From Methanofollis formosanus (GTDB lineage Archaea > Halobacteriota > Methanomicrobia > Methanomicrobiales > Methanofollaceae), in assembly GCF_019633745.1 (NCBI RefSeq), contig NZ_CP037968.1, positions 2,734,789-2,798,788 on the forward strand: a DNA stretch of 64,000 bases. The letters are read 5' to 3'. Below, piece after piece: positions 15,881 through 62,225 of this stretch. The notes under the pieces were generated by a model. It did not search any database. It was not told the DNA's origin and saw only the letters and a list, made by a program, of their open reading frames with translations. The position numbers and the translations under genes were made by a program. Within the stretch, counting starts at the first letter, position 1, and each line of letters opens with the position of its first letter.

Positions 15881-15960
15881 GGGCTTTGTAGAAATGCTCT
15901 TGATGGTTATCTCTGCGGGGGGCTGGCCGCCCCCCGGTCCCCCCGCATCACGATAGGGAG
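15881..15960 (+). repeat. GGGCTTTGTAGAA repeat, copy 1
   Basis: Begins GGGCTTTGTAGAAATGCTC, continues GATGGTTATCTCTGCGGGG and ends in the strong hairpin GGGGGGCTGGCCGCCCCCC. Related copies lie at 37961, 38630 and, reversed, 50731-50780. All are intergenic. Confidence 0.6.
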
Positions 15961-16001
15961 GTGGACTGCACCTCCCTCTCTGCGGTCATCTCTCCGCCTT
16001 C

Positions 16002-16056
16002 CTACCCCTATCGCAATCCCGGGGGTCCGGGGGCGGAGCCCCCGGCGTGAGTACGA
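16002..16056 (-). repeat. Hairpin repeat, reverse copy
   Basis: Contains CCCGGGGGTCCGGGGGC, then GAGCCCCCGGCGTGAG. This is the reverse of the GC-rich hairpin found in the long-core palindromic elements. The DNA between 15824 and 16491 has no other gene-like content. Confidence 0.55.
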
Positions 16057-16216
16057 AGGAAGGCGATGGATTCAGTTCATAGGGGGTTGAGGTGATGAAA
16101 AAAGGATGGTTTACCATGAAAATGATCCTGACGATCCTCTCTTCAGGTTTGCATGAGAGTTTGAACTCGTCATATCACATTGAAGCCGATACGCAGAGGA
16201 TAAAAAAATTCCTCTG

Positions 16217-16410
16217 ATGGATCTGCCGCCCCCGTCGTCGAGATTTCCCGCAATCTCGCGCCGGGGGAAACCCCCGGACCCCCACGACGAAGATAGGTGG
16301 GGGCGGCGATGGGACAAGACCCCCCCAGATTCTCCGGTCTTGAATAGAGAGAGAGCAAACGACGAGAAATTTTCATCCCGTATGCTTGAGCCAGGGGTTC
16401 ATGCCTGATT
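16217..16410 (+). repeat. Long-core palindromic element with downstream flank
   Basis: Left arm CTGCCGCCCCC is followed by TCTCGCGCCGGGGG, the hairpin, ACGACGAAGATAGG, and then right arm GGGGGCGGC. After it comes a stretch with CTTGAATAGAGAGAG and ACGAGAAATTTTCATCCCG, which also follows the element at 22.98 kb and occurs reversed at 34.3 kb. Confidence 0.65.
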
Positions 16411-16491
16411 CTACAGAGCCGAAAAAAGAGAGGACGTTGCTTCCGCCGGCATCGCCCGGGCCGGCACCGATGAATGTCGGGCCCTTTCAGA

Positions 16492-22879: not shown

Positions 22880-23133
22880 GGATCGTCCCTCGCCTTCCCT
22901 GCACTATCTTCATCCCGGGGGTTCCGGGGGCAGCGCCCCCGGCGCGAGGGTATGGGAAGGCGTGATGATCCGACATGCCGCCCTCATCGCACGATCTTTC
23001 CTGCCGTCTCGCGAGAAGATAGCCGAGGGGCGGCGATGGAACAAGGCCTCCATCGATTCTTCAGTCTTGAAAAGAGAGCGATCAAGCGACGAGAAATTTT
23101 CATCCCGCATGCCTGAGCGTAGCGCTCATGCCG
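22880..23133 (+). repeat. Palindromic element pair with conserved flank
   Basis: A reverse hairpin part (CCCGGGGGTTCCGGGGGC, then GCGCCCCCGGCGCGAG) is followed by a short-core element: CATGCCGCCCTC, TCTCGCGAGAAGATAG (core at 23007-23016), GGGGCGGCGATGG. Then comes the flank with CTTGAAAAGAGAGCG and GACGAGAAATTTTCATCCCG. The flank matches the one after the element at 16.2 kb. Confidence 0.65.
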
Positions 23134-26934: not shown

Positions 26935-27925
26935 TCTTCACCCAGGTAGGGCAGAGATGAACATCACTCGCCGCTGTCCTCGCCCTCTCCTCTCGCGAGA
27001 GGGTGGGAAAGATTCGGCGATGGAGGGACGGGATGATCTGATCGTCGCGCCGTCCCGCTGTCGTGACCCCGAAGATTGACTCCGGGACGGGAAATGGCCG
27101 ATCATTACTCGGCGGGATCACGCGTGGTGCCGTCCCCTGTCCTATCCTTTCGCGAAACGGCAGAACAGATCGATGACGAGGGGACGGCATGTTTGGATCA
27201 TGACGCCGTTCTGTTTTCATGCCCCAAAAGATTGGGGTGGGACGGTAAGAGGCGATCATCATTCAACAGGATCAGGCGTGGTGCCGTCCCCCGTCTTATC
27301 TTTTCGCGAGATGACAGAACAGATCCGGAGATCAGGGGACGGCACGGTCTGATCACCATACCGTCCCGCCGTCATGACCCTGGAGATAGAACCCAGACGG
27401 GAGAGGGCCGATATTTTTTCAGAGGAGCACACCACTCCATGCCGTTCCCCACCCTATCTTCTCGCGAGACGGTGGAAAAATTTCGGCGATGGGGGACGGC
27501 ATGATCTGATCGTCACCCCTTTCTCGTCGTCATGACCCTGAAGATAGGAACAGGACGGGAGAGGGCCGATCATTTCTCAGCGGCGTCACGCGTGGTGCCG
27601 CCCGCCCCTATCCTCTCGCGAGACGACGGGGAAGATTCTACAAAAAAGTGCGGCACGTTCTGATCATCATGCCGTCCTCGTCGTCATGACCCCGGGGATA
27701 GAACCGTGAAGGGAGAAGGCTGATCTTTTCTCAGCAGGAACACCGCCCCGTGCCGTCCTCTCGCGAGATGACAGAACAGATTCAGTGATGGGGGACGGCC
27801 CGTTCTGATCATCACGCCGTCCTCGTCGTCATGATCCCGAGGATAGAACCGGGAAGGTAAAGGGCCGATCATTATTCAGAGGGATCATGTGCCCCATGCC
27901 GTCCCCCATCTTCTCGCCCCCGGGC
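26935..27925 (-). repeat. Tandem array A of palindromic units (reverse orientation)
   Basis: Six clear units and a degenerate seventh, with central palindromes at 26991, 27148, 27302, 27460, 27614 and 27759 (TCTCGCGAGA or TTTCGCGAAA forms), spaced 145-158 bases apart. Each is flanked by GTGCCGTCCCC-type and GGGGACGGCA-type arms. It is the reverse of array B, and 27080-27275 is nearly identical to 39150-39345 read on the other strand. No conserved open frame runs through the units. Confidence 0.85.
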
Positions 27926-29924: not shown

Positions 29925-30160
29925 GACGGGCCGCCCCTATCGGAGAATGTTCATCGCCATCTCGCGTGAGGATAGGGCGGGGGCGGCAATCGCCCCCGGC
30001 GCGAGGGTGTGGGACGGCGCACGTTCGAAAGTTTTGAGGTGGAAGGTCTATCGATCAGCCGTGCCGCCTCTATGGGAGAATCTTCACCGATATCTCGCGC
30101 CGGGGGTTTCACCCCCGGACCCCCACGCCGACGATAGCCGAGGGCGGCAGTGGTGGGTGT
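29925..30160 (+). repeat. Two adjacent palindromic elements
   Basis: The first is a short-core copy with the core variant TCTCGCGTGA (29960-29969) and arms GGCCGCCCC and GGGGGCGGC. The second is a long-core copy: GTGCCGCCTC, TCTCGCGCCGGGGG from 30093, the hairpin, then GACGATAGCCGAGGGCGGC. They fill most of the gap between the ferritin-like gene and the MutY-like gene. Confidence 0.65.
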
Positions 30161-34280: not shown

Positions 34281-34490
34281 TGCCATGAATCCCGGGCTCA
34301 AGCATACGTGATGAAAATGTCTCGTCGTTTGATCGCTCTTTTTCAAGACAGGAGAATCAATGGGGGTCTTGTTCCATCGCCGCCCCTCGGCTATCTTTGT
34401 CGTGGGGGTTCCGGGGGGCAACGCCCCCCGGCGCGAGACGGCGGTACAGATCCTGCAATGAGGGCGGCACGCTTGATCATCCTGAAGGGC
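34281..34490 (-). repeat. Long-core palindromic element with flank, reverse copy
   Basis: On the plus strand it reads from the flank (GATGAAAATGTCTCGTCG, TTTCAAGACAGGAGAATC) into GCCGCCCCTCGG. Then follow CTATCTTTGTCGTGGGGG, the hairpin, CGGCGCGAGACGGCGG and GAGGGCGGCACG. This is the same composite found forward at 16.2 and 22.9 kb. Confidence 0.7.
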
Positions 34491-37960: not shown

Positions 37961-38070
37961 GGGCTTTGTAGAATTTTTCTGGATGGCTATTTCTGCGGGG
38001 GGTTGGCCGCTCCCCGGTCCCCCGCGAAGCACGGTTTTTCCCCCACCGTATTCTCGCGAGGGGTACGACC
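37961..38070 (+). repeat. GGGCTTTGTAGAA repeat, copy 2, with a short core
   Basis: Begins GGGCTTTGTAGAATTTTTCT, then GGGGGGTTGGCCGCTCCCC. It ends near a TCTCGCGAGG at 38052-38061, a variant of the palindromic core. Lies between the OpuC operon and the small ferritin-like gene. Confidence 0.55.
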
Positions 38071-38152
38071 AGGGGTTTCTGCACAGCCCGGTCCCGGGGT
38101 CGTTTGATCGGATCAGACCGGCAATCGGCGGGCGCCGGGCGAAAAAGATTAG

Positions 38153-38629: not shown

Positions 38630-38700
38630 GGGCTTTGTAGAATTCCTCTGGTTGGTTCTCTCTGTGGGGGACTGGCCGTCCCCCGCCGCATGATCGTTCC
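38630..38700 (+). repeat. GGGCTTTGTAGAA repeat, copy 3
   Basis: GGGCTTTGTAGAATTCCTCT, then TCTCTCTGTGGGGGACTGGC and CGTCCCCC. It runs directly into the first unit of array B, so the two repeat families meet here. Confidence 0.6.
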
Positions 38701-40092
38701 CGTCATCTCGCGAGAGGACGGGCGGGGAGCGACACGCCGGTGATCCCGCTCCCGTCCTGGTTCTATCTTCGGGGTCATGACGGCGGGACGGCATGACGAT
38801 CAGAACGTGCCGCCCCCTCGTCATCGATCTGTTCTGCCGTCTCGCGAGAGGATGGGCGGAGGACGGCACGCCGGTGATCCCGTTCCCATCCTGGTTCTAT
38901 CTTCGGGGTCGTGCTGACAGGACGGTATGGTGATTAGAATGTGCCGCCCCCTCGTCACCGGATCTGTTCTGCTGTCTCGCGAGAGGATAGGGCGGAGGAC
39001 GGCACGCCGGTGATCCCGCTCCCGTCCTGGTTCTATCTTCGGGGTCATGACGGCGGGACGGCATGACGATCAGAACGTGCCGCCCCCTCGTCATCGATCT
39101 GTTCTGCCGTTTCGCGAAAAGATAAGACGGGGGGCGGCACCACGCGTGATCCTGTTGAATGATGATCGCCTCTTACCGTCCCACTCCAATCTTCGGGGGC
39201 ATGAAAACAGAACGGCGTCATGATCCAAACATGCCGTCCCCTCGTCATCGATCGGTTCTGCCGTTTCGCGAAAGGATAGGGCGGGGACGGCACCACGCGT
39301 GATCCCGCCGAGTAATGATCGGCCGTTTCCCGTCCCGGAGTCAATCTTCGGGGTCATGAAAACAGGACGGCGTGATGATCAAAACGTGCCGCCCCCCGAT
39401 AACCGGATCTGTTCTGTCATCTCGCGAAAAGATAAGACGGGGGACGGCACCACGCGTGATCCTGTTGAATGATGATCGCCTCTTACCGTCCCACCCCAAT
39501 CTTCGTGGGCATGAAAACAGAACGGCGTCATGATCAAACATGCCGCCCCCTGATAACCCGATCTGTTCTGTCATCTCGCGAGAAGATAGGGGGGGCGGCG
39601 AAGAGTGGCGTGCTCCCGCTGAATAGAGATCGGCACTCTCCCGTCCGGGTTCTATCTTCGGGGTCACGGGGACGGGACGGTATGGTGATCAAAACGTGCC
39701 GTCCCCTGATAGCCGGATCTGTTCTGCCTTCTCGCGAAAAGATAGGGCGGGGGCGGCACCATGCGTGATCCCGTTGAATGATGATCGCCTCTTACCGTCC
39801 CACTCCAATCTTCGGGGTCATGAAAACAGAACGGCGTCATGATCCAAACATGCCGCCCCCCGATAACCGGATCTGTTCTGTCGTCTCGCGAGAAGATAGG
39901 GCGGGGAACGGCACGGCGGTGATCCCGCTCCCATGCGGGGTCAATCTTCGGGGTCATGACGGGGGGACGGTATGGTGATCAAAACGTGCCGCCCTCTATC
40001 GCACGATCTGTCCCGCCATCTCGCGAGAGGATAGGCGGGGGGCGGCGATGGAACACGGCCTCCATCGGCTCGCCGGTCTTGAAAAGAGGGAG
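38690..40092 (+). repeat. Tandem array B of palindromic units (forward orientation)
   Basis: Ten units whose centres (TCTCGCGAGA or TTTCGCGAAA) lie at 38706, 38840, 38975, 39110, 39264, 39420, 39574, 39730, 39884 and 40020. Spacings fall in two classes, 134-136 and 154-156 bases. Each unit has module I (GTGCCGCCCCC arm, GATCTGTTCTG, core, GGGGGCGGCAC arm) and module II (ACCGTCCCAC, ATCTTCGGGGTCATGA, GGACGG). The last unit grades into the GATGGAACACGGCCTCC flank. Frames open across units are not kept in register. Confidence 0.88.
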
Positions 40093-50369: not shown

Positions 50370-50540
50370 GTCCAATCGCCATCCCGGGGGTCAGGGGGCA
50401 GGGCCCCCGGCACCGGGCTTCGAAGGCGTGATGGAATGATCAGACCTGCCGCCCGCATCGCAGAATCTTTATCGCCGTCTCGCGCCGGGGGTTTCACCCC
50501 CGGACCCCCACGATGAAGATAGGGGCGGGGCGGCAGCAAT
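50370..50540 (+). repeat. Hairpin and long-core palindromic element
   Basis: A reverse hairpin (CCCGGGGGTCAGGGGGC, GGGCCCCCGGC) is followed by a forward long-core copy: CTGCCGCCCGC, TCTCGCGCCGGGGG from about 50478, hairpin, CGATGAAGATAGG and GGGCGGGGCGGCAG. The remaining gap 49763-50369 is AT-rich near the 49.8 kb promoter and otherwise featureless. Confidence 0.65.
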
Positions 50541-56899: not shown

Positions 56900-57215
56900 A
56901 CATGAACCACTGGCTCAAACGTACGCGATGAAAATGATTGTGAGTCTCCAGGGTATCTGGATCCGTGCTCGCCCCTTCAGAGCGGGACACTTTGTGAGAC
57001 CATCATCTCATTGCCGCCCCCGCCTATCTTCTGTCCGGGGGGGGCCGGGGGTGCAACCCCCGGCGCGAGACGGCGGGGAAGATGCTGCGAGAGGGGCGGC
57101 ACATCGATCATCACGCCTTCCCGCACACTCTCGCCGGGGGCGCTGCCCCCGGAACCCCCGGGAAGGCAGGTCGATCAGACCGGCCGCCCCCTCAATCGCA
57201 GCATCTTCACGCAGC
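56900..57215 (-). repeat. Cluster of palindromic element pieces, mostly reversed
   Basis: At 56900-56936 a fragment of the conserved flank (GGCTCAAACGTACGCGATG). At 57015-57100 a reverse long-core copy (GCCGCCCCCGCCTATCTTC, hairpin, CGGCGCGAGACGGCGGGG, GAGGGGCGGCACA). At 57115-57215 a further hairpin copy (CTCGCCGGGGGCGCTGCCCC) and GGCCGCCCCCTC. Confidence 0.6.
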
Positions 57216-62116: not shown

Positions 62117-62139
62117 GGGGGGAGAGGGCGCCTCCGTCC

Positions 62140-62225
62140 GAACGATTTGAACTGTTGTCTCGCGCCGGGGGTTTCACCCCCGGACCCCCACGACGAAGAT
62201 AGGCAGGGGACGGCACGATGCTCTT
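62140..62225 (+). repeat. Long-core palindromic element without a clear left arm
   Basis: TCTCGCGCCGGGGG, hairpin, CCCCCACGACGAAGATAGG, then GGGGACGGCACG. It follows mutL; the usual left arm is replaced by CCGAACGATTTGAACTG. Confidence 0.55.

Follow-up and report, generated by a model that had tools for sequence, protein, structure and literature searches.

Why should an archaeal chromosome carry, in a long intergenic region, a tandem array of palindromes, and from what did such an array arise? The window (the whole 64,000-nucleotide stretch of Methanofollis formosanus DNA analysed here) contains one in which palindromic modules of two kinds, I and II (about 54 and 69 bp in size), alternate without exception, ten of the former with nine of the latter. 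The preliminary description reported ten units with periods of 134–136 or 154–156 bp. The tandem arrangement and both periods are as stated there: ten TYTCGCGA cores (38706–40019) alternate with nine ATCTTCGGGG cores (38766–39945), and Tandem Repeats Finder scores the array at 671 to 1288. The count of ten holds for module I; module II is present only nine times, making nine full I–II units and a terminal module I. The limits originally given were right to within 50 bp (38673–40046 by HMM), with a terminal repeat to the left at 38631. The components are as follows.

38673–40046, plus strand: window array, ten module I and nine module II (HMM limits, core positions)
38631–38642, plus strand: left terminal inverted repeat GGCTTTGTAGAA of a MITE family, at the left edge of the array (exact match)
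38706–38715, plus strand: first module-I core, TCTCGCGAGA (TYTCGCGA core)
38840, 38975, 39110, 39264, 39420, 39574, 39730, 39884 and 40019, plus strand: starts of the other module-I cores
38766–38788, plus strand: first module-II core, ATCTTCGGGGTCATGA and following (ATCTTCGGGG core)
38900, 39036, 39190, 39345, 39500, 39655, 39809 and 39945, plus strand: starts of the other module-II cores
26974–27857, minus strand: second array of the same I/II unit; a partial unit runs on to about 27910

The second array, the terminal repeat at the left edge and the dispersal across the genome were absent from the preliminary description. The genome of M. formosanus DSM 15483T comprises 2,965,921 bp (PMC9119062), here a single contig. 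Profile searches of fetched stretches revealed at least 61 arrays with 346 copies of module I and 325 of module II, spanning about 52 kb; the number of arrays is a lower bound, resting on selected stretches of the genome, and the genus-wide model scored at least 150 candidates in this genome. The largest arrays hold 11 units. Of 606 pairs of neighboring modules, 592 alternate and 14 are of the same type; just four modules lie on the opposite strand. Two units from the window gave more than 150 BLAST matches in this genome, and units common to separate loci are up to 94% identical. Among the matches listed no array falls between about 2.87 and 0.42 Mb; a more sensitive model put arrays at 2.86 and 2.87 Mb, which weakened the idea that they shun one fifth of the chromosome. 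The Cdc6/Orc1 C-terminal domain has four matches in this genome, one strong (E 6e-31) and three weak, at 899.5, 1773.6, 2426.7 and 2715.7 kb (G000:C1).

Searching other Methanomicrobiales, as the preliminary description had proposed, gave no BLAST match to the unit in 49 genomes of the same order, nor was there a match among PLSDB plasmids; as far as tested, the repeat family appears limited to the genus Methanofollis. Within the genus the unit also occurs in three sister species (G005, G003 and G001; 92–97% identity of the one flanking protein compared), where the loci read hold arrays of 1 to 2.5 units or solo modules. More distant species have mainly a solo form interrupted by a hairpin, or nothing. 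Several Methanofollis genomes returned no unit at all in the genus-wide model search; the unit is therefore dispensable for the genus.

On gene calls made with a simple codon-usage predictor written for this analysis, all 40 mapped arrays are intergenic (one doubtfully so). Flanking genes are convergent in 15 cases, tandem in 22 and divergent in three: divergent (promoter–promoter) regions are avoided (p = 0.002) and convergent regions favoured (p = 0.003). The orientation of arrays relative to the flanking genes shows no preference (10 ++ versus 12 --).

A first indication of origin comes from the terminal repeat at the array's left edge, which matches at five places in the window against 0.29 expected, and from copies of module I that stand alone.

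15882–16420, no strand assigned: intact 539-bp MITE, GGCTTTGTAGAA ... TTCTACAGAGCC, with a solo module I inside; near-perfect 8-bp target duplication AAAAAAAG/GAAAAAAG
16222–16307, plus strand: solo module I, centre split by a CCGGGGG...CCCCCGGACCCCC hairpin
22973–23034, plus strand: solo module I, no hairpin
29926–29988, plus strand: solo module I, no hairpin
34379–34471, minus strand: solo module I, hairpin present
50445–50535, plus strand: solo module I, hairpin present
57012–57104, minus strand: solo module I, hairpin present
62139–62217, plus strand: solo module I (partial), hairpin present

The G/C-rich CCGGGGG...CCCCCGGACCCCC hairpin thus often interrupts the centre of the palindrome in the solo modules of the window; a similar G/C-rich hairpin lies in the other half of the MITE. 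Several solo modules sit in elements bounded by GGCTYTGTAGAA ... TTCTACAGAGCC. These belong to a MITE family with the terminal repeat GGCTYTGTAGAA and 8-bp target duplications, perfect examples of which are GGAATAAT, GATTTCTG, CTCCTCTG and AAAAGAGC. Sites with the end motif number 140 in M. formosanus, 363 in G003 and 509 in G001; the reversed pattern gives 0–2. Some related elements were noted in passing. A short element with terminal inverted repeats (TIRs), GGCTTTGTAGAA ... TTCTGCACAGCC, occupies 37962–38088 of the window, between the start of an OpuAC-type binding-protein gene and a rubrerythrin-like gene, and could affect the promoters of either. In Methanofollis sp. STE_20, TIR elements are nested in a 1,189-bp composite (L114, 1501–2689), which lacks an intact transposase. 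A 2.2-Mb Methanofollis genome (G004) has 48 matches to DDE_Tnp_1, far above any other genome of the genus, and GGCTYTGTAGAA MITEs are nearly absent from it (five sites).

The probable means of MITE movement is present in the same genome. A 1008-bp IS5-family element of M. formosanus (L117, 1444–2451) encodes a 305-amino-acid transposase (NF033579, E 2.5e-70), shares its ends with the MITEs and is flanked by a perfect 8-bp duplication, GAACAATC. The terminal repeats of the solo MITEs (15882–16420 and others) match these ends, and on this sequence match the IS5-family element is the likely source of transposase. A second element, of 1,488 bp (L135, 1398–2885; about 1.048 Mb in M. formosanus), has a different subterminal sequence, GGCTCTGTAGAATCAGGCATGAACC, a perfect 8-bp duplication, GATAATAT, and an open reading frame for a 164-amino-acid DDE transposase; it is the probable partner of a second MITE subfamily. 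RAYT, ISL3, IS6 and IS1595 transposases were considered as mobilisers and none was found in the M. formosanus genome; the Y1 transposase (RAYT, PF01797), with no match there, has matches in 6 of 12 Methanofollis genomes.

Are the arrays themselves connected to this family? Of 122 array edges, 15 have a terminal repeat in the correct orientation within 250 bp, compared to one of 122 control stretches (p = 0.0003), and usually just one edge of an array has a recognisable repeat. At the one orthologous site compared, that of the window array, the left terminal repeat is shared by G005, where a remnant of roughly 150 bp takes the place of an array, and G003 and G001 have TIR-bounded elements, likewise with no array. 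None of the arrays examined for both termini is enclosed by a full TIR pair with matching target duplication, which implies that the arrays are old or have been rebuilt. For this reason we infer MITE origin from flanks and the single site comparison, and describe the arrays as MITE-derived rather than filing them as MITEs. The opposite order of events is also seen: at L046 (4892–5433; duplication GATRAATG) a MITE has inserted into an existing array. The preliminary description matched the unit to no known repeat class and held that a match to a transposon end would count against its account. The array ends carry the terminal repeats of an IS5-type MITE family and the solo modules lie within its members, which comes close to such a match; the statement that no known class applies needs qualifying accordingly.

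Changes per column, counted on a tree of 200 units, have a variance-to-mean ratio of 10.8; in the T and C columns of ATCTTCGGGG there are none, where the mean is 21.7. Among the conserved blocks are GCCGTCCC, TCGCGAGA, GGGACGGC, ATCTTCGGGGTCATGA and GATC, and units from the sister species match the conserved columns at 93% and the variable columns at 76%. Such concentration of change in certain columns, together with the match across species, is not expected of neutral copies. The sequence comparison thus supports selection on the unit, as had been suggested initially.

Spacing between the modules is also regular. The distance from II to I is 52–54 bp in 284 of 301 cases; that from I to II is 81–86 bp (58 cases) or 99–109 bp (218 cases), with rarer values of 63 and 126–127 bp and almost nothing between the classes. 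The short I-to-II spacers fall into several sequence classes, some possibly related. Steps in I-to-II spacing are close to 21 bp, equivalent to two helical turns. A Rayleigh test on 14 spacer classes gives p = 0.06 at 10.5 bp and p = 0.007 at 21 bp, the latter period picked post hoc; helical phasing, by which the sites would lie on one face of the helix, is only suggestive. The tight spacing adds weight to the possibility that the modules are protein sites.

Taken together, the data lead us to favour, tentatively, the following account: the arrays may be MITE-derived, BIME-like clusters of putative DNA–protein sites that were amplified and kept. The inside of a small non-autonomous MITE, moved by an IS5-family transposase, would have been amplified in tandem, and in the lineage of M. 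formosanus the resulting arrays would have reached at least 61 sites at gene ends. Every unit would hold two conserved palindromic sites at near-fixed spacing, and selection would have acted on these two DNA sites after, or along with, amplification. The arrays would now be retained as clustered sites for a protein that binds or wraps DNA, by analogy with bacterial interspersed mosaic elements (BIMEs); a topoisomerase or nucleoid protein acting at the ends of transcription units is an example of what might bind, and the role would be topological or architectural.

Less probable, but a serious rival, is that the arrays are a satellite without function: the interior of a MITE, tandemly amplified and homogenised by gene conversion, would have persisted where intergenic sites at gene ends tolerate extra copies. 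The rival is serious since only one species shows the expansion, with 1 to 2.5 units or none at the sister loci read, and since the protein reading is putative; newer MITEs inside arrays, as at L046, and the decayed array termini are also in keeping with it. A functionless satellite does not, however, account for change being concentrated in particular columns, some with none, and for those same columns being conserved across species. Nor would neutral copying alone yield spacing classes that stay tight despite differing spacer sequences.

A further possibility is that the units act as transcribed hairpins, with a role in 3'-end processing, termination, RNA stability or as a small-RNA cluster. 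The gene-end location of the arrays and a fold of −10.2 kcal/mol for the module-I consensus would be consistent with this. RNAalifold detected almost no structure in an automatic 200-unit alignment, probably in part owing to indels, and pairs were therefore tallied directly on the 200 units. The preliminary description held that the cores change together, suggesting selection either on pairing or on a symmetric protein site. This holds only in part: across the genome, TYTC..GARA pair by Watson–Crick rules in 130 of 200 units, against 118 expected by chance. Paired change is in excess at three module-I pairs, with seven double events against 1.5 expected at 9/61, eight against 2.7 at 38/45 and two against 0.3 at 10/60. 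A scan of all column pairs revealed similar excesses at other, structurally meaningless pairs, so the module-I covariation is modest evidence. Module II shows none across the 200 units (864 Watson–Crick pairs observed, 866 expected), and pairing therefore cannot be the general rule; in a 37-unit alignment 0 of 20 predicted pairs have a double change. Departures from pairing are divided about equally between G-U (71) and A-C (65) in the module-I arms, and in module II A-C (132) exceeds G-U (84). Since G-U is not above A-C, the counts do not favour the plus strand as RNA. With covariation at just three pairs of module I, none in module II and no G-U bias, selection is unlikely to have acted on an RNA hairpin. 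The indifference of arrays to gene orientation also speaks against hairpins, and so does the result of searching the array with Rfam models, where no known structured RNA family matched at the gathering score. We consider transcribed hairpins improbable. Of the two alternatives originally raised, the data agree better with a symmetric protein site than with base pairing.

Least probable of all is that the palindromes serve a transposase or recombinase which amplifies and moves the arrays and so maintains the constraint on them: the constraint itself, the units of up to 94% identity at separate loci and the terminal repeats shared with the resident IS5-family element are compatible with this, but IS5-type transposases act on terminal repeats, which the array units lack, the genome has no Y1 (RAYT), ISL3, IS6 or IS1595 transposase, and the array termini look inactive.

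Returning to arrays kept as binding sites, a stronger version would have the transposon interior domesticated to give two-site arrays across the genome, helically phased, that through a putative archaeal protein manage chromosome organisation or supercoils at gene ends, having evolved independently of BIMEs. We regard this stronger version as rather unlikely. If the arrays are binding sites in the general sense, then a small archaeal chromosome has gained at least 61 new sites by amplifying the interior of a transposon, and the sister species that lack the expansion offer a natural before-and-after experiment on extragenic repeat clusters. Why prokaryotes keep such clusters is a question still debated in the case of bacterial REPs and BIMEs. 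If the arrays are functionless, they show clearly how a MITE can give rise to a satellite in a prokaryote.

Comparison to known systems places the arrays among several classes. Like CRISPRs they consist of tandem, partly palindromic repeats in intergenic space; however, the spacer parts are conserved across 200 units, the period is 135–157 bp and copies are spread over at least 61 loci, and the view that this is not a CRISPR stands. The solo elements share with the IS-derived MITEs of archaea, for example those of Sulfolobus, the terminal repeats and 8-bp duplications of an autonomous IS, short non-coding interiors and many copies (PMC3718332). The Methanofollis arrays differ in that the interior is amplified, to 11 units at most, and the termini have decayed. 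We are aware of no published prokaryotic MITE whose interior forms such arrays, and searches of the open-access literature surfaced none. Eukaryotic MITE-derived satellites are tandemly amplified transposon interiors, and the arrays resemble them in this respect; here, though, the setting is a 3-Mb archaeal chromosome, the copies lie at gene ends and constraint on the sites is strong.

BIMEs, which gyrase, IHF or Pol I can bind, and clusters of REPs have much in common with the arrays: alternating palindromic modules at regular spacing, an intergenic location mostly outside promoter regions, hundreds of copies and a history tied to transposable elements (PMC6379681, PMC2817692). They differ in that the archaeal modules are about 54 and 69 bp, whereas REPs, of which BIMEs are built in alternating orientation, are palindromes of 20–40 bp; spacing in the archaeon is longer and more rigid; and the associated transposase is an IS5-family DDE enzyme rather than Y1/RAYT. 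Homology between module II and reversed module I is suggestive only (p = 0.06), so that I and II cannot clearly be called a single sequence in opposite orientations. For want of a RAYT, and with larger modules of this kind, the arrays are not BIMEs by membership. The closest functional analogue would nevertheless be BIME-2 of Escherichia coli, whose intergenic, alternating palindromes are bound and cut by gyrase (PMC6379681), and by this analogy the arrays look like an archaeal counterpart of the bacterial repeat clusters whose function is debated.
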